Assembly (NCBI GenBank): GCA_023150835.1
Contig: JAKLKB010000035.1
Coordinates: 6,830 to 70,829 of the forward strand
Reading direction: 5' to 3'
Length of the DNA stretch: 64,000 bases
Source of the DNA: Myxococcota bacterium
GTDB lineage: Bacteria; Myxococcota_C; UBA6777
The notes beneath the pieces are model-generated. The model saw only the letters and a program-made list of their open reading frames with translations. It ran no database searches and was not told the origin of the DNA. A program made the translations under genes and the position numbers. Positions within the stretch are counted from its first letter, which is position 1. Each line of letters begins with the position of its first letter. Shown in pieces: positions 619 to 22,190 of this stretch.

Positions 619-800
619 GAGGTTCTCGTTGTGTGGGGTTATAAGGAGCAGTCCACGGAAAGCACGGAAAAGTGAAAGAGGTCAAAGGCCATCAGAGAGC
701 GAAAACAAGTCGCACCTTGGGAAGGGCTTGCGCAAGCGCTATACCGCGCCACGCGAGAAATCGTACAGGAAAGAGAGATGAGGGGGGGGCTGTTGTGTCG

Positions 801-1742
801 TCAAGAGGCGGTCGTTTGGGAGAGGATCGCTTGGAGTGGGTTGGCGACATACGGTTGAGAGCAAAAGGAGAGTCCACATTTGGCGAAGTGGTGGGCGTTT
901 TCGGGTTCTTTGCGTCCGAGGCAAGCGCGGGCGAGGGAGAGGTAAAGTTCGGCGAAAAAGGGGTATTGGTGTTCGTCTTGTTGGCTGTAGGTGAGGGCGG
1001 CAAAGAAGGCGCTGGCTTTTCGGGAGATGCGGCGGTGGAGGGGGAGGTCTTTGCGGCCAGCTTCGGAGATACGGGCGCTTTCGATGAGCGCATCGAGATT
1101 TTCTTGGAGGAGAGTGCTGGCGCGTCGGTATTCGTTGCGAGCGAGGGCGATCTCGCCACGTATGGCGTCGAGGATGTAGCGGTGGGGGGGGCCGCTGGTG
1201 ATCTCTTCGGCTTCGCTGAGGGCGAGGTCGGCTTGACGTAGGGCGTCTTGGTTGGAGAAGCAAAGGGCGAACAGGCGGGCTTTTTGAGCGAGAAGCCCAG
1301 CACGAAGTAGCGAGGGTGGGACGTGTTCGAGGGCTTCATCGAGGATCTCACGGGCGCGTTGGGGATAGCCGAGGCGGCGTTCGAGATCGGCTTCCATACC
1401 CCAAACAAAAGCGGCTTCCATGCCGGTATCACGGGATTTTTGGAGCAGGCTTCGTGCAAGGGTTTCATCGGCTTCTTCGATGGCGAGTTCGGTTTGCATT
1501 CGCAGATACGCTTCATAAGGAAGCAACAGCCGCCAAAACAGCAGGTGTCTTCGAGCGGATCGAAAACGGCCTTGGCTGCGCAGTTTTCCGATATGCCGAT
1601 AATGCGCAAACACGGCCATGACCATCGGGAAAAGCAGCAAGATCCCGAGCAAAAGGCCATCAATCGGCAGCCGCAGACCATAAGAGAGAAAGACGATCCC
1701 CAAAAAAGGGAACAAGATAAACAAGAGTACACGAAAGAACAT
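801..1742 (-). CDS. membrane-anchored TPR-like protein
   Basis: A 313-residue protein with two hydrophobic segments at about residues 3-22 and 27-46. A long helical region follows, rich in the A/L/Y spacing of tetratricopeptide-like repeats, for example around LGYPQRAREILDEALEHVP and FAELYLSLARACLGRKEPEN. It is probably anchored in the inner membrane with a solenoid domain for protein contacts. The start at 1742 is preferred over longer options because AGGAAG lies six bases upstream and the hydrophobic segment begins there. It sits between the HPr-kinase-like gene and the oxidase/SDR pair, all on the minus strand but separated by repeat-bearing spacers. No enzymatic motif is visible. Function unknown. 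Confidence 0.7.
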   Translation of the reverse strand: MFFRVLLFILFPFLGIVFLSYGLRLPIDGLLLGILLLFPMVMAVFAHYRHIGKLRSQGRFRSARRHLLFWRLLLPYEAYLRMQTELAIEEADETLARSLLQKSRDTGMEAAFVWGMEADLERRLGYPQRAREILDEALEHVPPSLLRAGLLAQKARLFALCFSNQDALRQADLALSEAEEITSGPPHRYILDAIRGEIALARNEYRRASTLLQENLDALIESARISEAGRKDLPLHRRISRKASAFFAALTYSQQDEHQYPFFAELYLSLARACLGRKEPENAHHFAKCGLSFCSQPYVANPLQAILSQTTAS

Positions 1743-1767
1743 GCGATCTTCCTTGTGTGGGGTTTGA

Positions 1768-1972
1768 TGGCAAGCGGTCCCGTTGTTGGGCCACAGGGGG
1801 CTTCGGACGACGAAAACGAGAAAGATGCGACTGTAAAATGGCAAGCGGTCCTGTTGTTGGGCAGCCACAGGGGGCTGCCCCTACATCGGTCGCTCACACA
1901 ACGACGTTGTTTTTGTGAGTGGGATGGTTGCGGGGCTGTCCCTACGTAGGTCGCTCGCACGATGGGCGGATG
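1768..1972. repeat. dispersed hairpin repeat family A, compound copy
   Basis: The core at about 1860-1881 is a perfect 8-bp stem, GGGCAGCC paired with GGCTGCCC, followed by a CTAC...CGCTCACACAACG tail shared with the other family A copies. Two weaker partial copies flank it, at about 1776-1806 (a GGCAAGCGGTCC-type segment duplicated from the main copy) and 1931-1970 (GGGGCTGTCCCTACG). It lies between the DprE1-like gene and the TPR-like gene. Confidence 0.75.
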
Positions 1973-1977
1973 TTGTC

Positions 1978-3992
1978 TTATTCTTTTAACAGGCCGATGC
2001 GGTCGGCCAGATCGTTGGTGAGGATGCCCGCTGGATCGAGTTGGCTTTTGAGAGAGCGCAACTGTCGTAGGCGATCCGCAGGAAAAGAGCGTTTGAATTG
2101 GTTTTCTGTCAAGAGGCCGTCTTTGGCGAAATAAAATCGCCCGCCGTGTTGGAGGACGACTTCGGTCATCTCGTGGGCGAGTCGATGGAGTCGGCGTTGG
2201 TTGCGTTCGCGGACGGGGTAGTCGAGCGCAAAGCTGTATCCGTCCACGTTGTAGGACATCAAGAAAGGATCGGGGAGGTGTTTTTTGAGGACGGCCAAAA
2301 AAGGCGGGATTCCCGCTTTTTGTGACAAAAGGATCTGTTGCTCGAAGACTTGTCGTGCGGCAGCTTTGGGGACAAAGGTTTGGTATTGGATCAGGCCGCC
2401 CGGTTGGTAACTTTTTTGCCATCCCGGGACGTAATCCAGCAAGAAGTTGAATCCAGCGTGGCTTTGTCGGTACGGTGGGCGCGAGGCTTCGCGGCGGTCT
2501 GCGTAAAACTTGGCGGTGTTGACCAACCGCATCCCGGGCCGATGCAAGAACATCCACAGCCCCATCCACAGCATCGATTTGGGGACAACGCCGAGGAACA
2601 CTTCGGGGAGTTCTTGGTAAGAGAGTTTGAGCGTGTGGTGAGGGCGCTTGTCTTCGCCTTCTTGGAGGTTGCGTGCGACGTGCAAGGTTCCTCGCCCCAA
2701 CTGAAAGCCGGGCGCAAGCGCATCGACCCAGCCCACAAGGTAATCTTGATCGAGGTGTGCTTCCATCACGTCGATCATCTCTTGGATCGAGCGTGTCGAA
2801 AAGGTTTCGACCAAGACTTCGCCGCTGTAGACGCGCTTCATTTGCAATCGAATCCGCGTGATCACCCCCAATACTCCGCCTGATCCGATCACTCCATAAA
2901 AGACCTCGCGGTGTTGACTCGGCGAACACGTCAACAAGCGCCCATCCCCCGTCAAGACATCGATCTCCAAAACATGATCGCCGAGCGTCCCGTATTTGAA
3001 GCTGTTCTTTCCGTGTATATTGACGCCCAATCCCCCCCCAAGTGAGGTGCGCATCGTTCCGCTGACCACAGGCGGCCACCAACCATCTTCGAGCGTGTAG
3101 TGCCACAGATCCACAATGCGCACCCCCGGCTCAACATCGATCACTCCGTTGCTCGGATCCCACGCCAAGACCCGTCGCATCCGCGTCAAATCCAACAACA
3201 CACGATCTTGGCCGATACTGGCGTCTCCATAACTTTGTCCGCTTCCGCGCAACGTGATCTTGACCCCTTCTTCGTGGGCTCGCTCAAGGATCCTCTGCGC
3301 TTGCTCCACAGTCGTTGGGCGCGTCGCATACATATCCGCACCATGCGACATCCCCCATCCGCGCACCCGCTCCATCCGCGATGACAACACCAAACCACCG
3401 CTCAATAATGCTTGCTGCATCTCCCCTCCTTCCTCTGGACTCTGCATCTCCCCTCCTTCCTCTGGACTCTGCATCTCCCCTCCTTCCTCTGAACTCTGCA
3501 TCTCCCCTTCTTCCGCTGAACTCTGCATCTGCGCAATTTTCGTCTCTTCGTCTGGCTCGTTTGCCTCCGTATGCTCGGAGTGTGTTGTGGGTTCTTTTGG
3601 GGCGGTGGGTTGCGAAACGGGAGATTCCTGCGGGTCGTCGTACGAAGTGTGAAACTCGCGCTGGTCGTTTTCCGTGTTTTCCGTGTTTTCCGTGTTTTCC
3701 GTGTTTTCCGTGTTTTCCGTGTTTTCCGTGTTTTCCGTGTTTTCCGTGTTTTCCGTGTTTTCCGTGTTTTCCGTGTTTTCCGTGTTTTCCGTGTTTTCCC
3801 CGTGTTTTCCGTGTTTTCCGTGTTTTCCGTGTTTTCCGTGGGCTCTTTTGAGGCGGGATGGATGGGGGCGGAGTGGTTGAGTTGGCGGAGTTGGGCGTCG
3901 ACTTCTTCGACGGCGCGGGCGAGAAGTTCTTCTTGTGTTTTTTGGGATGGTGGGTTTTTGGGGGGTGATTTTTTCTTTCGAGAAGCAGCCAT
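1978..3992 (-). CDS. DprE1-like FAD-dependent oxidase, frame broken in 9-bp repeat
   Basis: The catalytic part (about 480 residues, 1978-3420) is a VAO-type FAD-linked oxidase. [13 protein letters not shown] is the FAD_binding_4 loop, and [17 protein letters not shown] with VLTGDGRLL closely match DprE1, the decaprenylphosphoryl-ribose oxidase. The natural start seems to be ATG 3992 (MAASRKKK) with AAGGAT eight bases upstream, 45 bases after the SDR gene. That frame enters an (ENT)n array and is lost at an 11-bp unit with two extra C at 3798-3801. Removing two bases restores exactly the frame of the oxidase. Between array and oxidase lie four 27-bp repeats (QSPEEGGEM). A start inside the repeats or at MQQALL (3420) could still give the core enzyme. 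Substrate is inferred only from the family. Confidence 0.75.
3416..3523 (-). repeat. 4 x 27-bp tandem repeat inside oxidase gene
   Basis: Four units at 3416, 3443, 3470 and 3497. The first two are identical and the fourth has several changes. In the oxidase frame each encodes nine acidic residues of the type MQSPEEGGE, forming a linker before the FAD domain. Confidence 0.9.
3667..3839 (-). repeat. 9-bp minisatellite, 19 units, one unit out of phase
   Basis: Fourteen perfect GTTTTCCGT units (plus strand) run from 3667. One 11-base unit, GTTTTCCCCGT, follows at 3793-3803, then four more perfect units to 3839. On the minus strand the array encodes ENT in the oxidase frame. A 9-bp unit change keeps the frame, but the two extra C do not. 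Confidence 0.95.
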
Positions 3993-4037: not shown

Positions 4038-4808
4038 TTAGAAGGACATCTTGCGAAACAGGAAGCTGGGGATTTGGCGGATGATCCACATGATCGGTCG
4101 CCAGATGCCGGGGACGTAGACGATGTTTCGGCGAGCGTGGATGGATTTGGCGATGCGCATGGCGGCTTGGTGAGGTTCGAGGATAAAGGGTTGGTTTTTG
4201 AGGTGAGCGGTCATGGGAGTACGGACGGGGCCGGGTTTAACGGTGAGGACGTGGACATCGTGAGGGGCGAGTCGATTGCGGAGGGATTCGAGGTAGGTGT
4301 CAAGAGCGGCCTTGGAAGCGGCGTATACGGTGTTTCCGCGTCGTCCACGATCACCTGCGACCGAGCCGATACCGACGATGGTTCCGCGTTTGGTTTGGGA
4401 AAAGCGTTTGGCGGCTTCGTTGAGCCAAGCGATGGCTCCAAGGAGATTGATCTCGATGATCGATTGATCTTTGGTGAAGTCGAATTCATCGGGTGCGAGG
4501 GTGGGCATGATACCAGCGGCGTAGACGACGAGTTCAAGGCCGGGGGCTTGTTGGGAGATTTGTTGGAAGAGAGCGGGGATCTCGGCGTAGTGGGTGGTGT
4601 CGTGTGGGAAAGGAAAAGCGATGGGATCGGTGTGGCCTTGGTTGATCTCGGCAGCGAGTTTGCGCAACAGCTCGATGCGACGGGCGACGAGAGCGACGGC
4701 GTAGCCTTCTTTGGCGAGGTGACGGGCCAAGGCTTCTCCGATCCCTGAGGAAGCTCCGACAATCAACGCGACGGGGCGAGCAGCGCGCAACAGTGTTCCA
4801 CTTGTCAT
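4038..4808 (-). CDS. short-chain dehydrogenase, DprE2-like
   Basis: A 256-residue SDR. The Rossmann loop IVGASSGIGEALARHLA lies near residue 15, and NLLGA and a Ser/Tyr/Lys triad follow (GIGSVAGDRG then YAASKAAL). The C-terminal GIWRPIMWIIRQIPSFLF resembles DprE2, the partner that reduces the 2-keto lipid-linked sugar made by DprE1. Start 4808 has GGAG about seven bases upstream. A longer frame to 4919 is less likely, because its extra residues do not look like SDR sequence. The DprE1-like oxidase follows 45 bases downstream on the same strand, so an operon making an epimerised lipid-linked sugar is the simplest reading. The substrate is inferred, not seen. Confidence 0.85.
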   Translation of the reverse strand: MTSGTLLRAARPVALIVGASSGIGEALARHLAKEGYAVALVARRIELLRKLAAEINQGHTDPIAFPFPHDTTHYAEIPALFQQISQQAPGLELVVYAAGIMPTLAPDEFDFTKDQSIIEINLLGAIAWLNEAAKRFSQTKRGTIVGIGSVAGDRGRRGNTVYAASKAALDTYLESLRNRLAPHDVHVLTVKPGPVRTPMTAHLKNQPFILEPHQAAMRIAKSIHARRNIVYVPGIWRPIMWIIRQIPSFLFRKMSF

Positions 4809-9712: not shown

Positions 9713-12700
9713 TCAAGGAGAGGCGGGAGTTTGTGTGGAGAGGATCTGTACGGCGCGTTGGAGTTGTGGGTCGCGGTTGTGGCGCTCGTCGTTGGGGGTG
9801 AGAGGGACTAGGACATCAGGGACAGCGGGTCCGTTTTCCATATTTTGGAGGGTGGGGAGCGCCCACCATCCGCGCAGCGGGACGCCAAAGAGCGAGCCAT
9901 CGCTGAGACGGACGCGGCGGGTGGAGATCACGCCGCCGTAGGTGGGCATACCGACCAAGGTTCCGAGTTTGAGGTTTTTGAAGGCATGCGAAAAGATCTC
10001 GGCGTTGGAGATGCTGCGTTCGTTGCACAACAGGATCACAGGCTTGGACCAGTAGTAAAAAGGCCGACGGAAGGCGGGATAGCCTTTGCCCGAGCCGCGC
10101 CATTGGGTGATCGCGTGTGGTTTGGGTCGGAACATCGTGAGGATGCGATCGGTGGTCCATCCCCCGCCGTTGTTGCGAACGTCCAAGACAAGGGCGTCTT
10201 TGCCGTAGGCATGGGCAAAAAGATCGCGTTCAAATTGATCGAGGCTTGGTAGGCCCATCGAGCGGATGTGGGCGTAGGCAAAGCGGCCTTTGCTCCATCG
10301 TGTGACGCGGCGGCGATTGCGTTCGACCCATGCTTCATAGCGCTGCGTGATCGCTTGGTGAAACGTGCCGCCGATGAAGGATACGTCGCGTTGTTTGCCG
10401 TCTTTTCCTTGCAATGTGAGCAATATCGGGCGATTGGCGCGCCATCGGAGCAGGCGATAGACGTTTTCGCTGCTGTGAAGGGGATTTCCGTCGATCGCCA
10501 ACAAGATGTCGCCTTTGTGAAGTCGTTGACGGTGGTGTGTGGCGGGTCCTTTGGGTCGGATGCGAGCGATCTTGAGTCCTTGTCCTTGGTGGTTGGGGTC
10601 GAAAGATACGCCAAGATCGGCGAGCGGCGTTTGTGGGGCTTGAGAGCGCGGAGACAACACGCCCAGATGGCTCGCAGCGAGTTCTCCGAGCATCATCAAG
10701 AGGATGTCATCGATCCCTTCGGAGGTGACGGCGTCGGGGAGCAGTTTTTTGTAGCGTTCGTAGGTTTTTCGCCAGTCGATGCCGTGAAATCGGGGATCAT
10801 AGAACCAGCGATCGAGCCAAGCCCACGCTTCTTTGAGTTTTTGGGCATGAAGGGCCGCAAGGTTCCAGCGGCGTTCGATCTGGAAACGCACAGGTTGGGC
10901 TTTTTTCTTTTTGCGATCCAGCGCAAAGAGTTGTCCTTTGGGGGCCAAAAAATAGAGCGTATGGTCTTTGCCCCACGCCATCGCATACGCAGGGCCTTGA
11001 TGGATCTGGACAAGCTTTTTGCCGAAGAGATCGACGGTGTAGATGCCCTTGGAGCGGCCTTTTGCGGCGAGATAGAAAGTGTCGCCTGTGGGGGAGGCCA
11101 AGATCTGATCGGGGCCTTCGGGGCCGGGGAGATCATTGACGGCGCGCAGACGAAAAGGCAGCCGCTTGAAGTGGAGTTGGATACGCGGTAAGCGTCCTTC
11201 TTTCGGGGGGATGGGGCGAGAGGGAGGGCGGGCGGTTTTGGTTTGTATGGTGGGTGTGGCAGTATTGGTTTGTATGGTGGGTGTGGCAGTATTGGTTTTG
11301 GCGGAGGATGGGGAAGTATTGGTTTGTATGGTGGGTGTGGCAGTATTGGTTTTGGCGGTGGGTGTGGCAGTATTGGTTTTGGCGGAGGATGGGGAAGTAT
11401 TGGTTTTGGCGGAGGATGGGGAAGTATTGGTTTGTATGGTGGGTGTGGCAGTATTGGTTTTGGCGGAGGATGGGGAAGTATTGGTTTTGGCGGTGGGTGT
11501 GGCGGTTTTGGTTTGGGCGGAGGGGTGCGAAGAGGGTTTTGGGTGCCAAGCGTGGAAAGTTGTGGAGGCTTTGAGATAAGCCGTTTGGGCTTGGAGTTGT
11601 TTTTTGTGTTGTTTTTTCCAGCGTTTGAGGGCGCGTTTGAGGGAGGGGTTGTCGCGTTCGTGGTCGTTGCGGTTGGGGAAAGCGTAGTGGATCTTGAAGC
11701 GATCATCGATGCCACGCGAGAGCCACGCCAAGACGCGACCGTTGTCGGACCAGACGGGAGAAAGGTCGATATCGGGGTGACGACTGAGATTGAGTGCAGG
11801 GCGCGATCCATCGGCCTTGATCAAAAAGACGTCGGTGTTGGACTCGTCGTCATCGCGCAGAAAGAGCAGCCACTTGCCGTCAGGAGACCAGAGGAATTCT
11901 TGGAGATTCCAGCCTTTGACGAGGGTGCTTTCTTGTCCGTCAAGGGTGCGCAAGACGAGATCGCCTTGACCGCGCAAGAAGGCGATCTGTTGGCCTGTGG
12001 GAGACCAACGGGGGGATTGTTCGTCGACTTGGGTTTGGAGCGGGTTGAGGCGTCGGAAGGGGATCTGGGCGGGGTGGCAAGCAAAGAACAGCCGAGGTTG
12101 GCCTTTTTGGTCTTTGCAAGTCGAAGCGACGAAGATCGCCTTGTATCCGTCACGATCGGAGGTGAACGCCAGCAAGCGGCCATCGGGAGACCAAGCGAGG
12201 TGTTGTTCGTGAGCAGGAGAGGTGGCGAGTGGACGAGCGATCTTGTCGGGATCTTCGGGTTGGATGATGTAGATATCGCCGCGTGCGACGAGTGCGATCT
12301 CTTTTCCGTTCGGAGAGACGGCGTATTCGGAGAGGGGTCCAGAGAGTAGTTCGCGGCGTTCTTGTGTGTGTCCGTGATCGCCGTCTGCAAGGAAGTGGAT
12401 GGGCAGCAGCGTTTTTTTCGCGGTGTCGTAGCGCAACAAGCGATCCCAGTAGGCGAGGACGACGTGCTGTTTGTTGTAGGCTGCATGGACGCTGCGAAGT
12501 CCCGTTTGGGTGAAACGTGTCCATTGAGTTTGCTGTTTTGTGCGCAGATCCATGACCCACAGGTCCATGATATCGCGGGTTTCTTTGCGAAAGACGATGC
12601 GGTGTTGATCCAACCAACTGGGCGAGTCACTGGTTTGGCCGAAGGTGAGGCGTTGGAATTGCTTTGTGGAAAAAGTGTACATCCAAAGGTGCCGATGGTA

Positions 12701-13267
12701 AGGCATCTTGTAGCGAGCGCGCCACCATCGCGGATCGCCTGAGACAAACAGTAGGCGTTTTCCATCGGGAGAGATCGCGGCATCGACGGCGTTGACGGAA
12801 AGCAGGGGCTTGGGCGTGCCGCCTGCAAGGGGGACTTGGTGCAAGGAAAACTTGCTGTAATAGGCCCAGTCGCGTTGAGAGCGAAACAAGACGGAGCGCC
12901 CGTCGGCACTCCAACCGACGGGGAGATCATCGGCATCGTGGAAGGTGAGTTGGCGGGGTTCTCCGCCTGTTGAGGGGACAACAAAGACATCGTAAGAGCC
13001 GGAACGACGGGAGGCAAAAGCGATCCAGCGTTCATCGGGCGACCAGATCGGGTGGCGATCTTCGGCGGGGTGGGCGGTCAAGCGGCGGGCGGTTCCACCT
13101 TGCGAAGAAGCCACCCAGAGATCGCCACGCCAACCGAAGGCGATCTGTGTACCAGAAGGCGAGAGACTGGGGTGGTGTACGACACGGACGGGCGTTCCAG
13201 CCCATCCTTCCTGAAGGGACAGCATGAACACCAGCCATGCTGTACCGAACCATCGCCATGTTTGCAT
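9713..13267 (-). CDS. tricorn-like S41 protease with beta-propeller and PDZ
   Basis: A 1184-residue protein with a signal peptide (FGTAWLVFMLSLQEGWAG). An N-terminal TolB/PD40-type propeller carries repeated blades of the SPDGKRLLFVSGD, SPDGRLLAFTSDRDG and SPDGKWLLFLRDDDE kind. A Thr/Pro/Ser repeat linker lies at about 586-676 and a second propeller follows. A PDZ domain lies near 886-970 and a C-terminal S41 peptidase core includes NNGGGWTT and SISNAEIFSHAF, with the likely nucleophile Ser near residue 1087. Tricorn-type proteases trim peptides. The signal peptide puts this one outside the cytoplasm. Start 13267 has GAGGT upstream. Confidence 0.88.
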   Translation of the reverse strand: MQTWRWFGTAWLVFMLSLQEGWAGTPVRVVHHPSLSPSGTQIAFGWRGDLWVASSQGGTARRLTAHPAEDRHPIWSPDERWIAFASRRSGSYDVFVVPSTGGEPRQLTFHDADDLPVGWSADGRSVLFRSQRDWAYYSKFSLHQVPLAGGTPKPLLSVNAVDAAISPDGKRLLFVSGDPRWWRARYKMPYHRHLWMYTFSTKQFQRLTFGQTSDSPSWLDQHRIVFRKETRDIMDLWVMDLRTKQQTQWTRFTQTGLRSVHAAYNKQHVVLAYWDRLLRYDTAKKTLLPIHFLADGDHGHTQERRELLSGPLSEYAVSPNGKEIALVARGDIYIIQPEDPDKIARPLATSPAHEQHLAWSPDGRLLAFTSDRDGYKAIFVASTCKDQKGQPRLFFACHPAQIPFRRLNPLQTQVDEQSPRWSPTGQQIAFLRGQGDLVLRTLDGQESTLVKGWNLQEFLWSPDGKWLLFLRDDDESNTDVFLIKADGSRPALNLSRHPDIDLSPVWSDNGRVLAWLSRGIDDRFKIHYAFPNRNDHERDNPSLKRALKRWKKQHKKQLQAQTAYLKASTTFHAWHPKPSSHPSAQTKTATPTAKTNTSPSSAKTNTATPTIQTNTSPSSAKTNTSPSSAKTNTATPTAKTNTATPTIQTNTSPSSAKTNTATPTIQTNTATPTIQTKTARPPSRPIPPKEGRLPRIQLHFKRLPFRLRAVNDLPGPEGPDQILASPTGDTFYLAAKGRSKGIYTVDLFGKKLVQIHQGPAYAMAWGKDHTLYFLAPKGQLFALDRKKKKAQPVRFQIERRWNLAALHAQKLKEAWAWLDRWFYDPRFHGIDWRKTYERYKKLLPDAVTSEGIDDILLMMLGELAASHLGVLSPRSQAPQTPLADLGVSFDPNHQGQGLKIARIRPKGPATHHRQRLHKGDILLAIDGNPLHSSENVYRLLRWRANRPILLTLQGKDGKQRDVSFIGGTFHQAITQRYEAWVERNRRRVTRWSKGRFAYAHIRSMGLPSLDQFERDLFAHAYGKDALVLDVRNNGGGWTTDRILTMFRPKPHAITQWRGSGKGYPAFRRPFYYWSKPVILLCNERSISNAEIFSHAFKNLKLGTLVGMPTYGGVISTRRVRLSDGSLFGVPLRGWWALPTLQNMENGPAVPDVLVPLTPNDERHNRDPQLQRAVQILSTQTPASP
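11241..11510 (-). repeat. 10 x 27-bp tandem repeat in tricorn-like gene
   Basis: Ten contiguous 27-bp units of three variants are interleaved in a non-periodic order. On the minus strand they encode TNTATPTIQ, TNTSPSSAK and TNTATPTAK. The mosaic order suggests unit shuffling by recombination rather than simple end-growth. Confidence 0.93.
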
Positions 13268-13671
13268 TGTTGACCTCACGAGGTTTGTGTGTGGTAGTGC
13301 GTCCCTTTTTGGGGCGCGCCATCCTACGCGATGATGTGGCTGTTCGCAATCATGGCGCAGCGTGTTGGAGGCCCGTGCAGCTTTTGGCGGGCATGGGGTG
13401 GCGGATGGAGGCGGGGGGAAAGAATCTTTTGGGTGGGCTTGCATCGAAGTCTTTGGTTCGTTAGGTTTGTGCGTTTCTTGGGTGAGCCTTTGTTTCTCCG
13501 TCTAGCCTTGTTGCCGATCGGGCCGCAGGGAGGGATGCTGCGTAAAGCGCGGCACGGTGGATCTCGAACGTCCCAAGCGCCTGTTTGTGCGGTAGGATGG
13601 GGAGATGAGAGACGTGTCGGGAGGGCGGGGGAGATGGTGTGGTGTGTCTTTGCGTGTAGGAGGTTTTGGGG
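13268..13671. other. intergenic region between divergent genes
   Basis: This spacer of about 400 bases separates the tricorn-like gene (minus) from the amidase gene (plus), so it must hold promoters for both. I see no clear sigma-70 boxes, palindrome, RNA gene or dispersed repeat in it. Confidence 0.5.
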
Positions 13672-15129: not shown

Positions 15130-15212
15130 ACAAGCTGCGTACTGCGACAAGTCTCGGAGGAAAAGTGGATGTAAGGTTTAGAGGAAAAGTGGATTTTCGC
15201 GGCACGATGGTG

Positions 15213-15340
15213 TTGTGGGGTGCCACCCCACGCCCCGCCATAGGTCGCGGCCCCCTTGACCCCGTGTAGGCGAAGAGATCGATGGTTTTCCACCGGATGG
15301 CTCTGTCGCTCGCAACGGCTGCGAACACGGGTTTTTTTGT
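15213..15340 (+). repeat. dispersed repeat family B, copy 1
   Basis: It begins with the hairpin GTGGGGTG/CACCCCAC (8-bp stem), continues CGCCCCGCCATAGG, CCCTTGACCCCGTGT and GGCGAAGAGATC, and ends GCGAACACGGG followed by seven T. The same order of blocks recurs at 48296, and inverted at 35361 and 50258. Confidence 0.8.
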
Positions 15341-15399
15341 CCATACGTCACACCTAAAAGGTAGGATGTGCGCGGTAGAAGCAGGAAGAGAGAAAACCG

Positions 15400-17351: not shown

Positions 17352-19412
17352 ATGAAGCAAGCTAAACAAGAACACGTCCGAAACATCGGGATCATCGCGC
17401 ATGTCGACGCTGGAAAAACCACGACAACCGAGCGATTTTTGTATTACACAGGAAAGACCCATCGCCTCGGTACGGTGGACGAGGGCAACACCACAACGGA
17501 CTGGATGGATCAAGAGCAAGAACGCGGTATTACGATTACTGCAGCCGTCGCGGACTGCCCTTGGCGTTATGGCGACACCGAGTACGATATCCATCTGATC
17601 GATACACCGGGGCACGTGGACTTTACCATCGAAGTCGAACGGTCGTTGCGGGTCTTGGACGGGGCGATAGTGGTGCTCGATGCGGTCGAAGGTGTGGAAC
17701 CTCAGACCGAAACGGTATGGCGTCAAGCAGAACGTTACAAAGTCCCGCGTCTGGTGTTTATTAACAAGATGGATCGGATGGGTGCGGACTTTGAGGCTGC
17801 GGTGGCGACCGTTGGAAAGCAGTTGGAGGCGCGTGCTGTACCGATCCAGATCCCGTGGGGATGTGAAAACGAATTTGTCGGATGTATCGACTTGATCCGC
17901 CAGATCGGACTGTATTGGACAGGCGAAGAGCTTGGGGCCAAGTTCGAGGAACGCCCCATCCCTGCCGAGCTACAAGGTGCAGCCGTCGCAGGTCGAGAGG
18001 CTCTTTTGGGCGCACTCTCCGACAACGACGACGAGTTGGCCGAGCTTTATTTGATGGAAGCGCCGATCTCCAACGAGCAGATCTACGCGGCTCTTCGCAA
18101 GCAGACCATCGCCAATGTGATCAAGCCCGTCCTTTGTGGGAGTTCCTTGCGCAACAAAGGCGTACAGCCGCTTTTGGATGCGGTGGCTTTGTACTTGCCA
18201 TCGCCGTTGGACATCCCACCCGTCGAAGGGATCAACCCCAACACAGGCGAGACCGAGCAGCGGATCAGCCGTGTCAAAGAACCGACCTGTGCGATCGTTT
18301 TTAAGGTGATGATGGATGAAGGCCGTCGCCTGACGTATTTTCGCGTCTATTCGGGGGCGATTAAAGAAGGTGACAACATCTGGAACGCAACACGTGGCGA
18401 CTTTGATCGTGCAGCGCGGCTGTACATGATGCTCGGTGGAAAAAAGATCGCGGTGGACGCGATCAAATCGGGGTTTATCGGTGCTGCGCGTGGGATGCGC
18501 ATCAGCATGACGGGAGATACGCTTTGCGACAAAGAGCGTCCGATCTTGCTCGAACAGATATCGAGCATGGAACCCGTGATCAAGATCGCCCTTGAGACCG
18601 AGTCGAGCAAAGATCGCGATCAATTGGTCGACTCTTTGAAAAAGCTTGCCGAAGAAGATCCCACATTCCGTTTTGAAGAAGACAGCGGCACAGGCCAGAT
18701 GTTGATCGCGGGGATGGGCGAGCTTCATCTTGATGTCTTGACCACCCGTCTGAAACGCGAGTTCAAGCTCGAAGGGCTGCGTGTGGGCCACCCGCAAGTC
18801 GTCTGCCGTGAAACGGTCACCCGCGAAGTGATCGTCGCAGAGATCTTTCAGCGTGTTCTTGAGGATGTGAAGCTGTTTGCGGGGGTTCGCTTGCGCATTC
18901 GTCCGATGCCAAGGGGCGAAGGCAATCAATACGTCTACGGTCTGCCTGCCGAACGTGAGATATCCCAAACTTGGAAGGATGCTCTTGCGGAGGGCGTGAA
19001 CTATGCTCTCGAAGGCGGTGGGCCAAACGGATATCCGTTGGTGGATACGCAAGTGACGTTGTTGGATATCACGGCCTCGGAAAACCCCGCAGAATCGACC
19101 CCGAGTGCTTGGAAAGCTGCTATCGCACAAGCCATGCAAGAAGCGATGAAGCTCGCTGCACCGATGACGCTTGAACCCCTGATGATGGCCGAGATCGTGA
19201 TCCCCAACGAAACGACAGGCGATATCATCGGCGATATCAACGCCAAACGCGCCATGATCCAAGCCATCGATCAACGCGGTGACAAGTCCGTGATCCGCGC
19301 CCGTGTCGCCTTGCGTGATATGTTCGGATACAGCACAGCTTTACGCTCCATGACCCAAGGCCGAGGCATCTTTACGATGCAGTTTGATTCTTTTGGCAAC
19401 TCGAACGAATAA
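17352..19412 (+). CDS. fusA: translation elongation factor G
   Basis: A 686-residue EF-G. The GTPase motifs are AHVDAGKTT (G1, about 16-24), ERGITI (switch I side), DTPGH (G3) and NKMDRMG (G4). Domains II to V follow, with MGELHLDV in domain III and the closing MFGYSTALRSMTQGRG of domain V. It moves tRNA-mRNA through the ribosome with GTP. It is not beside rpsL, rpsG or tuf, so it may be one of two paralogues (an EF-G2-type copy for recycling is possible). The sequence alone does not settle that. Spacing from the ABC gene is 74 bases. Confidence 0.95.
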   Translation: MKQAKQEHVRNIGIIAHVDAGKTTTTERFLYYTGKTHRLGTVDEGNTTTDWMDQEQERGITITAAVADCPWRYGDTEYDIHLIDTPGHVDFTIEVERSLRVLDGAIVVLDAVEGVEPQTETVWRQAERYKVPRLVFINKMDRMGADFEAAVATVGKQLEARAVPIQIPWGCENEFVGCIDLIRQIGLYWTGEELGAKFEERPIPAELQGAAVAGREALLGALSDNDDELAELYLMEAPISNEQIYAALRKQTIANVIKPVLCGSSLRNKGVQPLLDAVALYLPSPLDIPPVEGINPNTGETEQRISRVKEPTCAIVFKVMMDEGRRLTYFRVYSGAIKEGDNIWNATRGDFDRAARLYMMLGGKKIAVDAIKSGFIGAARGMRISMTGDTLCDKERPILLEQISSMEPVIKIALETESSKDRDQLVDSLKKLAEEDPTFRFEEDSGTGQMLIAGMGELHLDVLTTRLKREFKLEGLRVGHPQVVCRETVTREVIVAEIFQRVLEDVKLFAGVRLRIRPMPRGEGNQYVYGLPAEREISQTWKDALAEGVNYALEGGGPNGYPLVDTQVTLLDITASENPAESTPSAWKAAIAQAMQEAMKLAAPMTLEPLMMAEIVIPNETTGDIIGDINAKRAMIQAIDQRGDKSVIRARVALRDMFGYSTALRSMTQGRGIFTMQFDSFGNSNE

Positions 19413-19422
19413 TACGAAATCC

Positions 19423-19545
19423 GCCCGTTGTGTGATCGTCAAGAGGTAGGGGCAGCCCCCTGTGGCTGCCCAAGAACAGGGCGTCTGTGTACTCTCCTTT
19501 GCGTACACATCACTTGGGTATCGTACAAAGGCAGTCGGATCGACC
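19423..19545 (+). repeat. dispersed hairpin repeat family A, copy 2
   Basis: Reads TCCGCCCGTTGTGTGATCGT, then the 8-bp stem hairpin GGGCAGCC/GGCTGCCC at 19449-19471, then ACAGG-CGTCT and a tail of about 50 bases that matches copy 3. It fills the space between EF-G and the NUDIX gene, starting 11 bases after the EF-G stop, and could act as a transcript-end hairpin. Confidence 0.8.
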
Positions 19546-20372: not shown

Positions 20373-22190
20373 CTATTCTTCGGAAGAAGGGCTGTGTTTG
20401 TGGGAGAGGACATCGATGGCGAGGGGCATTTGGTCCCAACCGTTGGGTTTGTGTCGGTGGACTTGGCTGATCGCGTGGCGGAAGACAAAGAGTTCGATCT
20501 CTTCGTCGCAAGGGGTATCTTCGCAGTGGAGGAGCAGGCCGATCTGATAAGGATCGGACCAAGAGATGGTGCCACTGATCCAAGAGCCATCGGCAAGGCA
20601 GAGATAGACCGAGCCTTGGTCGGCTCGATCCCACGTTTGGTCTTCAAAGGTGGGCCGTTCGTTGGGATCGAAGGAAGGCAACTGGCGTGTTGCGTAGAGT
20701 TCTTCGTCGATGCGAGCGTTAGAGAGGACGGTATCGCGCCACGGTAGGGGGGCGAGGGCTTGCATCTCCAACTTGTGAACGCGGCGCTTTTTGCGAGATT
20801 TTCCGCGCACAATGCAATGGAAGACGTGGACTTCCATCATGCGGCCTTGGATGCGTGGGTCATTGACGCCCCAGATCCAAACGAGGTCTTTCGATTGCGT
20901 CCAGCTATCGAGGATCTGCGAACCCGGGTAATCGCGGGTGACATCCATGCGGCCTTCGAGGTAGGCTTTGCGCTTTCTGGATTGCTCGCGGCGTTTGCCT
21001 TGTTGGGCTTCGCGCAACTGCTTGAGCGTCCAGCTTTCTTGGTTGAGGCGGTCGGCGGTATTGATATCGATATGCGGATAACGCTCTTGAAGCTTGAGCC
21101 ACACTTGATAGCGTTGGCGGCGGTTTTCGTAGGCTTCGGCGCTTTCGTTGGGGCGAGGACGAGGGGGTTTGGGCGCATCTTCGGGCGATTTGGCTTTTTT
21201 GGCTTTTTTGCTTTTGCTGCCATCTTCATCATCGCGCTCGCGTTCGCGTTCGCGTTCCCGCTTGCCCCAACGCTCCTCTTGGCGGGGCCGCTCGGGTTCG
21301 CTAAAAGCCCGTTTTTTGGGGGGCGGCGGCGTGCGTTTGCCGACGCGGTAATTGCGATTGCCGTCGACGTCGTCTTCGTCTTGGACTTGTTCTGGCTCGT
21401 TGGGTTTGAACAAGTTATCGAGGACAGACAAGATCTTTTCGGAGCGACTGAGCGGAACGCCTGCTGAACCCGGTGCTTTGGGTCCCCAATCAGGGCCGCC
21501 AGAGGGGCGACTTGCGCCGTAAGCACCGCGAGATCCGTAGTTTCCATCGGAGCGAAGATCATCTAGCGGGACGCGTGCGCCTTGGCGTTCGGTGCGCTCC
21601 GCACGCTCGACTATCCGCATAGGTCGATCATTGCGGTCGCCGCGATCGCTTGCACTGCTTCGGTCGTTGCGATCGCCGCGATCGTTTGCGCTGCTGCGAT
21701 CGTTTGCGCTGCTGCGATCGTTTGCGCTGCTGCGATCGTTTGCGCTGCTGCGATCGTTTGCGCTGCTGCGATCATTGCGGTCGAAGCGGTCATTGCGGTC
21801 GAAGCGGTCATTGCGGTCATTGCGGTCGAAGCGGTCATTGCGGTCGAAGCGATCATTGCGGTCGAAGCGATCATTGCGGTCATTGCGGTCGCTTGGACTG
21901 CTGCGATCGCTTGGACTGCTGCGATCATTACGGTCGAAGCGTTCGCTGCGTTCGCTGCGTTCGCTGCGTTCGACGCGAGGAGCGGCAGCTTTGCGGATGA
22001 CTTTTCCCGAAGTTGCGAAGGTGTAGGGCAGACTGCCCATGACACGCAACTGTTCTTCTGCGACTTGGCGTTGTTGTGGTGTTGGATTCATGCGCAGTAC
22101 GTCGCGGTACGCCTCGACGGCGTTGTCCCGATCTCCCTGAGCCAACAATTCATTGGCACGCAACAGACGTTCGTATGCAGCCTGTGACAC
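20373..22190 (-). CDS. basic repeat-rich protein with N-terminal TPR-like helix
   Basis: A 605-residue protein starting with GTG 22190 behind AAAGGAG, seven bases away. Residues 1-50 look like one TPR (ANELLAQGDRDNAVEAYRDV). About residues 75-200 are a low-complexity array of RFDRND and RSSAND hexapeptides. A charged region rich in KKAKK and RERERERDDED follows, then a C-terminal region of about 200 residues (around LVWIWGVNDPRIQGRMMEVH and GSWISGTISWSDPYQIGLLL) that looks folded. The last part resembles a small beta-barrel such as an Sm/Hfq-like fold, with ISGTISWSDPYQIGLLL, but this is only an impression. The Arg/Asn/Asp repeats suggest RNA binding or a disordered assembly scaffold. Not recognised. 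Confidence 0.75.
   Translation of the reverse strand: MSQAAYERLLRANELLAQGDRDNAVEAYRDVLRMNPTPQQRQVAEEQLRVMGSLPYTFATSGKVIRKAAAPRVERSERSERSERFDRNDRSSPSDRSSPSDRNDRNDRFDRNDRFDRNDRFDRNDRNDRFDRNDRFDRNDRSSANDRSSANDRSSANDRSSANDRSSANDRGDRNDRSSASDRGDRNDRPMRIVERAERTERQGARVPLDDLRSDGNYGSRGAYGASRPSGGPDWGPKAPGSAGVPLSRSEKILSVLDNLFKPNEPEQVQDEDDVDGNRNYRVGKRTPPPPKKRAFSEPERPRQEERWGKRERERERERDDEDGSKSKKAKKAKSPEDAPKPPRPRPNESAEAYENRRQRYQVWLKLQERYPHIDINTADRLNQESWTLKQLREAQQGKRREQSRKRKAYLEGRMDVTRDYPGSQILDSWTQSKDLVWIWGVNDPRIQGRMMEVHVFHCIVRGKSRKKRRVHKLEMQALAPLPWRDTVLSNARIDEELYATRQLPSFDPNERPTFEDQTWDRADQGSVYLCLADGSWISGTISWSDPYQIGLLLHCEDTPCDEEIELFVFRHAISQVHRHKPNGWDQMPLAIDVLSHKHSPSSEE
21648..21968 (-). repeat. 18-bp tandem repeats encoding RSSAND / RFDRND
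   Basis: Two related 18-bp unit types are present. About five consecutive units of GCGATCGTTTGCGCTGCT lie at about 21690-21770. A run of GCGGTCATTGCGGTCGAA-type units follows to about 21900. Both keep the reading frame and encode hydrophilic Arg/Asp/Asn/Ser hexapeptides. Confidence 0.88.

Follow-up and report, generated by a model that had tools for sequence, protein, structure and literature searches.

A DprE1-like oxidase gene behind a frame-broken repeat leader, with candidate internal translation starts

The window, by which we mean the whole stretch of 64,000 nucleotides analysed here, carries a reductase gene, an FAD oxidase gene and a gene for a TPR-type protein, with a repeat-rich leader ORF ahead of the oxidase. 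This genome (G000) was compared with a sister species (G001) and with family relatives (among them G002 and G004); the comparison set from the phylum comprised five genomes, and G000 was searched with patterns and region by region. The features at the locus are:

4038..4808, minus strand: DprE2-like short-chain reductase, ATG 4808, gene 1 of the putative operon
3402..3992, minus strand: leader ORF from ATG 3992 to TGA 3402-3404, reading MAASRKKK..., (ENT)4 and then a frame change
3832..3846, minus strand: head of a dispersed element, AGAGCCCACGGAAAA (pattern match)
3667..3840, no strand assigned: 9-bp array of GTTTTCCGT / ACGGAAAAC, about 19 units (TRF)
3793..3803, no strand assigned: frame-changing 11-nt unit GTTTTCCCCGT inside the 9-bp array
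3610..3669, minus strand: tail of the dispersed element, two diverged copies of the 30-nt module AACGACCAACGGGAGTTTCACGCTTCGTAC (alignment and module matches)
3415..3530, minus strand: 27-bp repeat, 4.3 copies, encoding EEGGEMQSP (TRF)
3418..3420, minus strand: most likely main oxidase start, ATG 3420, as AAGGAGGGGAG-ATG (Shine-Dalgarno pairing, accessibility, homologue lengths)
ATG 3447 and ATG 3474, minus strand: extra candidate oxidase starts, with a weaker one at 3501
1978..3420, minus strand: DprE1-like FAD oxidase core, 480 aa (domain and structure matches, dN/dS)
801..1868, minus strand: TPR-type protein, gene 3 in the conserved order (weak TPR_2 match)
651..670, plus strand: short intergenic copy of the dispersed-element head, around AGTCCACGGAAAGCACGGAAAAG, without counterpart in the aligned sister sequence

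The order reductase, oxidase, TPR-type protein is common to three genomes of the family, G001, G002 and G004. The TPR_2 match of the third gene is weak (2.2e-4, under the curated cutoff), and a related protein stands at the equivalent place in the loci L018 and L019. Scanning for promoters and terminators yielded counts near the shuffled level and no promoter on the minus strand.

The oxidase, taken as 480 aa from ATG 3420, contains FAD_binding_4 (PF01565, 1.4e-31), and its best NCBIfam model is DprE1 (NF053785, 3.3e-78, 263.9 bits, match 3-449 of 449). Among solved structures the nearest in sequence is again DprE1 (4aut, 4e-48); this full-length alignment covers oxidase residues 16-478, hence the domain needs no part of the leader to be complete. 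The IHGKN and FAKD/AKD motifs are common to the oxidase and DprE1. The reductase matches adh_short (3.8e-44) and the DprE2 model NF053786 (8.3e-41). As the oxidase stays under the equivalog cutoff of 500 bits and the reductase, with 140.3 bits, under that of 250, we file the two as a DprE1-like/DprE2-like pair that is not certified, and oxidation of decaprenylphosphoryl ribose is only predicted. The original prediction also called the gene DprE1-like; with its full-length matches the oxidase is, judged by its sequence, a relative of DprE1.

The 9-bp array (19.1 copies, 97% matches) is far beyond chance, as the reversed-pattern control gave 0 matches in every genome searched. Read on the minus strand from ATG 3992, the leader gives MAASRKKK, four ENT units and then GKTRKTRK... 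until the stop TGA 3402, and in this assembly it does not reach the oxidase. The oxidase frame is open from 1978 up to GTG 4089 and reads (ENT)n followed by the FAD oxidase. The original prediction had placed the loss of frame at the single 11-nt unit after (ENT)n, with coordinates and frames that proved right, and had noted that removal of two bases joins ATG 3992 to the oxidase frame, which holds on the sequence; one C more at this unit has the same effect. It had also taken ATG 3992 as the best start, with a ribosome site. The start is indeed present, but its Shine-Dalgarno pairing is weak (-5.4 kcal/mol) and the starts downstream are stronger.

These downstream starts lie in the 27-bp repeat, where the purine-rich Shine-Dalgarno sequence AAGGAGGGGAG stands directly before an ATG in the oxidase frame. 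The combination occurs three times, at ATGs 3474, 3447 and 3420, each pairing with the anti-Shine-Dalgarno sequence at -12.8 kcal/mol; of 450 in-frame ATGs taken from long open frames, no more than 1.1% pair as strongly. It should be noted that Shine-Dalgarno-like purine runs within coding DNA need not initiate. Compared with 16 other starts of the window (one of which, entered as 5040, sits one base off its ATG), ATG 3420 exceeds the best of them in pairing (-12.1 kcal/mol) and also in accessibility, its start region being unpaired at 0.91, while none of the others rises above 0.72. A set of about 60 homologues, drawn largely from other phyla, has its usable starts mostly 12-36 residues before a conserved Trp; ATG 3420 lies 21 residues before it and gives a protein of family-typical length. 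The sister species retains the 3420 start, likewise at -12.8 kcal/mol, and the 27-bp repeat is confined to the oxidase locus, with 4 units in this genome and 2 in the sister. The leader stop TGA 3402 lies 16-18 nt beyond ATG 3420, an arrangement in which coupled re-initiation may also occur there.

The sister species keeps the leader start as MASSRKKK, and the start region is conserved only there; the leader peptide matches nothing in Pfam and, beyond the sister species, has no clear relative. The leader repeat of the sister differs (ESEQSEHIEQ), and its fusion is interrupted by one in-frame TAA ahead of the oxidase, in a unit reading TAAAAC where GAACAC is usual. As these are two substitutions from the usual unit, slippage would neither create nor repair the stop. 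The two species of the genus have thus lost the connection between leader and oxidase in different ways, one through a +2 indel and the other through a TAA, and both breaks may be recent. The oxidase itself is 97% identical between the two species, and its 480 codons are intact in both, without stop or frame change. The core has a dN/dS of 0.065, with 58 synonymous against 14 non-synonymous differences (P about 2e-24 for synonymous excess), and is under strong purifying selection. In the same comparison the 38 codons at the leader start gave no significant constraint (4 synonymous against 6 non-synonymous, P 0.19). For the 13 codons between the array and the internal starts, read in the oxidase frame, the counts are 4 synonymous against 1 non-synonymous (P 0.012), and this synonymous excess hints at translation of the fused frame in former times, or until recently. 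Both G002 and G004 have a low-complexity extension in frame with the oxidase and lack a strong internal ATG, hence the fusion is likely the family state. We infer that this ancestral fusion became dispensable in the present genus.

The array has counterparts elsewhere in the genome. The core CACGGAAARCACGGAAA has 147 matches in G000, on both strands and in dozens of contigs, and 2 in the sister species, while three family relatives and the reversed control gave 0; many copies of one core thus lie at unlinked places. The copies open with AAGAGTCCACGGA, continue with AAACACGGAAA or the 30-nt module AACGACCAACGGGAGTTGCGCGCTTCGC, and then run into locus-specific tandem repeats. The head pattern AGAGYCCACGGAMAA was matched 28 times in G000 and once in the sister, with 0 matches of the reversed-pattern controls. 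Only 4 of the 28 heads lie inside an ORF of at least 200 aa, against 77% of random positions (a figure raised by antisense ORFs), and the element is found mostly outside genes. The tail at 3610-3669 aligns to another copy (L212, contig C99) over 60 nt without gaps at a score of 60, where 1000 shuffles reached at most 26 and the sister counterpart of the tail scored 20; the module AACGACCAACGGGAGTTTCACGCTTCGTAC has 15 matches in G000. Since both the head at 3832-3846 and the tail modules match other copies, the residues of the (ENT)n tract and those just after it are, on this sequence evidence, derived from the dispersed element. The 9-bp period had been considered as a sign of coding and was dropped, as 9-bp units also dominate the dispersed arrays (178 of 187), whose heads are mostly extragenic.

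Several further repeats were observed. The constant head AAGAGTCCACGGAAARCACGG is followed by different arrays at different loci (GAAGAAGAGG, GGGGAAGCGAA, AAAGGGGCAGG, GGAAAGTACGG and others; for example L145-L177 and L178-L207), and in compound copies (L131/L176 at C3:23848-24110, and L155 on contig C53) the 9-bp core is embedded in longer repeats and comes back at intervals of 77-91 bp. The window holds two more dispersed repeats of about 115-140 bp, at 15206-15343 and 19412-19525, with dozens of copies in the sister species. A short dispersed repeat of the CAGCCACAGGGGGCTGCCCCTAC type lies at 1850-1903; its matches in the sister coincide, on the opposite strand, with the family of 19412-19525. 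Minisatellites are also found within genes, at 11238-11524 (ORF 9713-13444) and 21625-21972 (ORF 20373-22190), with the frame kept relative to the sister.

On the above we consider it probable that the oxidase is translated from its own start or starts behind the array, with a dispensable leader and no need of a switch. Initiation would take place mainly at ATG 3420 with AAGGAGGGGAG, and the 27-bp repeat would have made the duplicate starts at 3447 and 3474. The stretch from ATG 3992 to this repeat would be a low-complexity, repeat-prone N-terminal leader, presumably once in one reading frame with the oxidase, as the extensions still are in the two family relatives, and holding a dispersed element made up of head, 9-bp array and 30-nt tail modules. 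A +2 indel in the array would have broken the fusion here and the TAA in the sister, leaving the oxidase unaffected, and ribosomes finishing the leader at TGA 3402 could re-initiate at ATG 3420. With strong in-frame starts downstream of the array, the oxidase would no longer depend on the leader frame.

On a first alternative, one fused protein would be made from ATG 3992, and the two extra bases in the draft assembly would reflect an error of sequencing or assembly, a caveat raised in the original prediction, or else a minority variant; this seems to us rather unlikely. It would agree with the fused extensions of the family relatives and with the synonymous excess of the post-array linker in the oxidase frame; arrays of 174 bp are longer than short reads, and repeats are where any assembler has most difficulty. 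However, collapse of 9-bp units cannot yield an 11-nt unit, and the sister leader is broken too, by a TAA two bases off the usual unit. Further, 14 window genes each aligned to the sister as one stretch in one frame over the aligned length, including the two ORFs with coding minisatellites (9713-13444 and 20373-22190), whose lengths differ by whole codons. The indels in the 26.5 kb aligned to the sister are mostly intergenic or in repeats, and the intragenic ones preserve the frame. As no frame change was found in the 14 genes, a random sequencing error at 3793-3803 is unlikely but possible. Phase variation, put forward as possible in the original prediction, would toggle the fused oxidase through slippage of the C run, as proposed there, or through further indels of the array, and this we regard as quite improbable. 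The longest relevant run is CCCC, so that the array has neither a long homopolymer nor a frame-altering unit, and a four-C tract is far shorter than the tracts known to switch by slippage. One C more, or two fewer, would restore the fusion, but the 9-bp units cannot shift the frame, and the same type of array is mostly intergenic elsewhere. The position of the array does fit, since contingency repeats favour the 5' ends of ORFs (PMC3899988). Against this, the sister is without this array and its leader is cut by a nonsense codon, and the internal starts would decouple the oxidase from the leader frame; given these in-frame Shine-Dalgarno/ATG modules downstream, it is unlikely that the leader frame decides whether the oxidase is made.

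Gene decay, with the fusion broken and no oxidase made, was another possibility named in the original prediction and might be read from the leader being interrupted in both species of the genus. The relaxed selection expected of a pseudogene is, however, not what the core displays, with 480 intact codons in both species, the dN/dS of 0.065 and the DprE1 motifs kept, and we find this reading highly improbable. Even less can be said for a ribosomal -1 recoding at ACG GGG AAA, with the Gly tRNA re-pairing on GGGG. Stepping back one base on the GGGG run of the 11-nt unit does lead straight into (ENT)n and the oxidase, but the sequence is no canonical slippery heptamer, no stimulatory element is shown, and the site is absent from the sister, where the lesion is a stop. 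Hardly credible at all is a fused protein starting upstream at GTG 4089, in the oxidase frame and inside the end of the reductase gene: the frame is open from 4089 to 1978, but the GTG has no Shine-Dalgarno site, overlaps the reductase and is followed by an Arg/Pro-rich, out-of-frame composition, and the oxidase frame of the sister is instead the MASSRKKK frame.

Translation from internal starts hence stays our preferred explanation, and the best reading of the setting is a DprE2-DprE1-TPR operon in which an intact DprE1-like oxidase is decoupled from its leader. In annotation, 3420 (or 3447/3474) is the start to assign to the oxidase, which should not be listed as a frameshifted pseudogene. 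The tandem Shine-Dalgarno/ATG module would be a simple route by which an enzyme could shed its N-terminal extension. The species-specific burst of the head-plus-array element (147 against 2 core matches) is also a natural experiment on the seeding of minisatellites in bacteria and their tolerance by genes. Tentatively, we speculate that a non-palindromic element of this lineage, in which the constant head AAGAGTCCACGGAAARCACGG precedes an array that varies by locus, repeatedly seeds new minisatellites, and that in the front of a gene it can add disordered protein or cut it off, while ribosome-binding sites from purine-rich repeats release the enzyme from its former leader.

There are precedents for internal starts, for repeats that break gene leaders and for interspersed repeats in bacteria. 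The pair resembles DprE1 (decaprenylphosphoryl-beta-D-ribose 2'-oxidase) and DprE2 in the full-length alignment, the best NCBIfam model, the adjoining DprE2-like reductase and the IHGKN/AKD motifs; it differs in an oxidase score of about half the equivalog cutoff, in the order reductase then oxidase, and in the low-complexity leader ahead of the oxidase. Bacterial internal (alternative) starts that give shorter isoforms likewise place a strong Shine-Dalgarno sequence and ATG inside a longer open frame, but here the start module is itself a 27-bp tandem repeat in 3-4 copies. Phase-variable contingency genes, for example of Neisseria (PMC3899988), have in common with this locus a tandem repeat near the ORF 5' end and a lost frame, and differ from it in that here the 9-bp unit keeps the frame, the tract is of four C, internal starts are present and the lesion of the sister is irreversible by slippage. 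In M. tuberculosis, tandem repeats vary in copy number in promoters (PMC12817950), and there too variants of tandem repeats can be overlooked or wrongly rendered in short-read assemblies; promoters are altered in that case, while here the repeat lies in a leader ORF. A search for the origin of the 9-bp repeat across phyla found no match in 195 genomes of one phylum and 3 of another, nor did a literature search on the repeat sequence; we could not match the head-plus-variable-array element and the tandem Shine-Dalgarno/ATG module to a described family and treat them as variants. Like Rickettsial palindromic elements and interspersed repeats of the REP type (PMC3733652), the dispersed element is short, non-coding and multicopy, with one copy in a translatable stretch; unlike them it has no palindrome that we could see, and combines a constant head with an array that varies from locus to locus. 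This dispersed element, with its shared head and locus-specific arrays, is a more unusual observation than the frame break.
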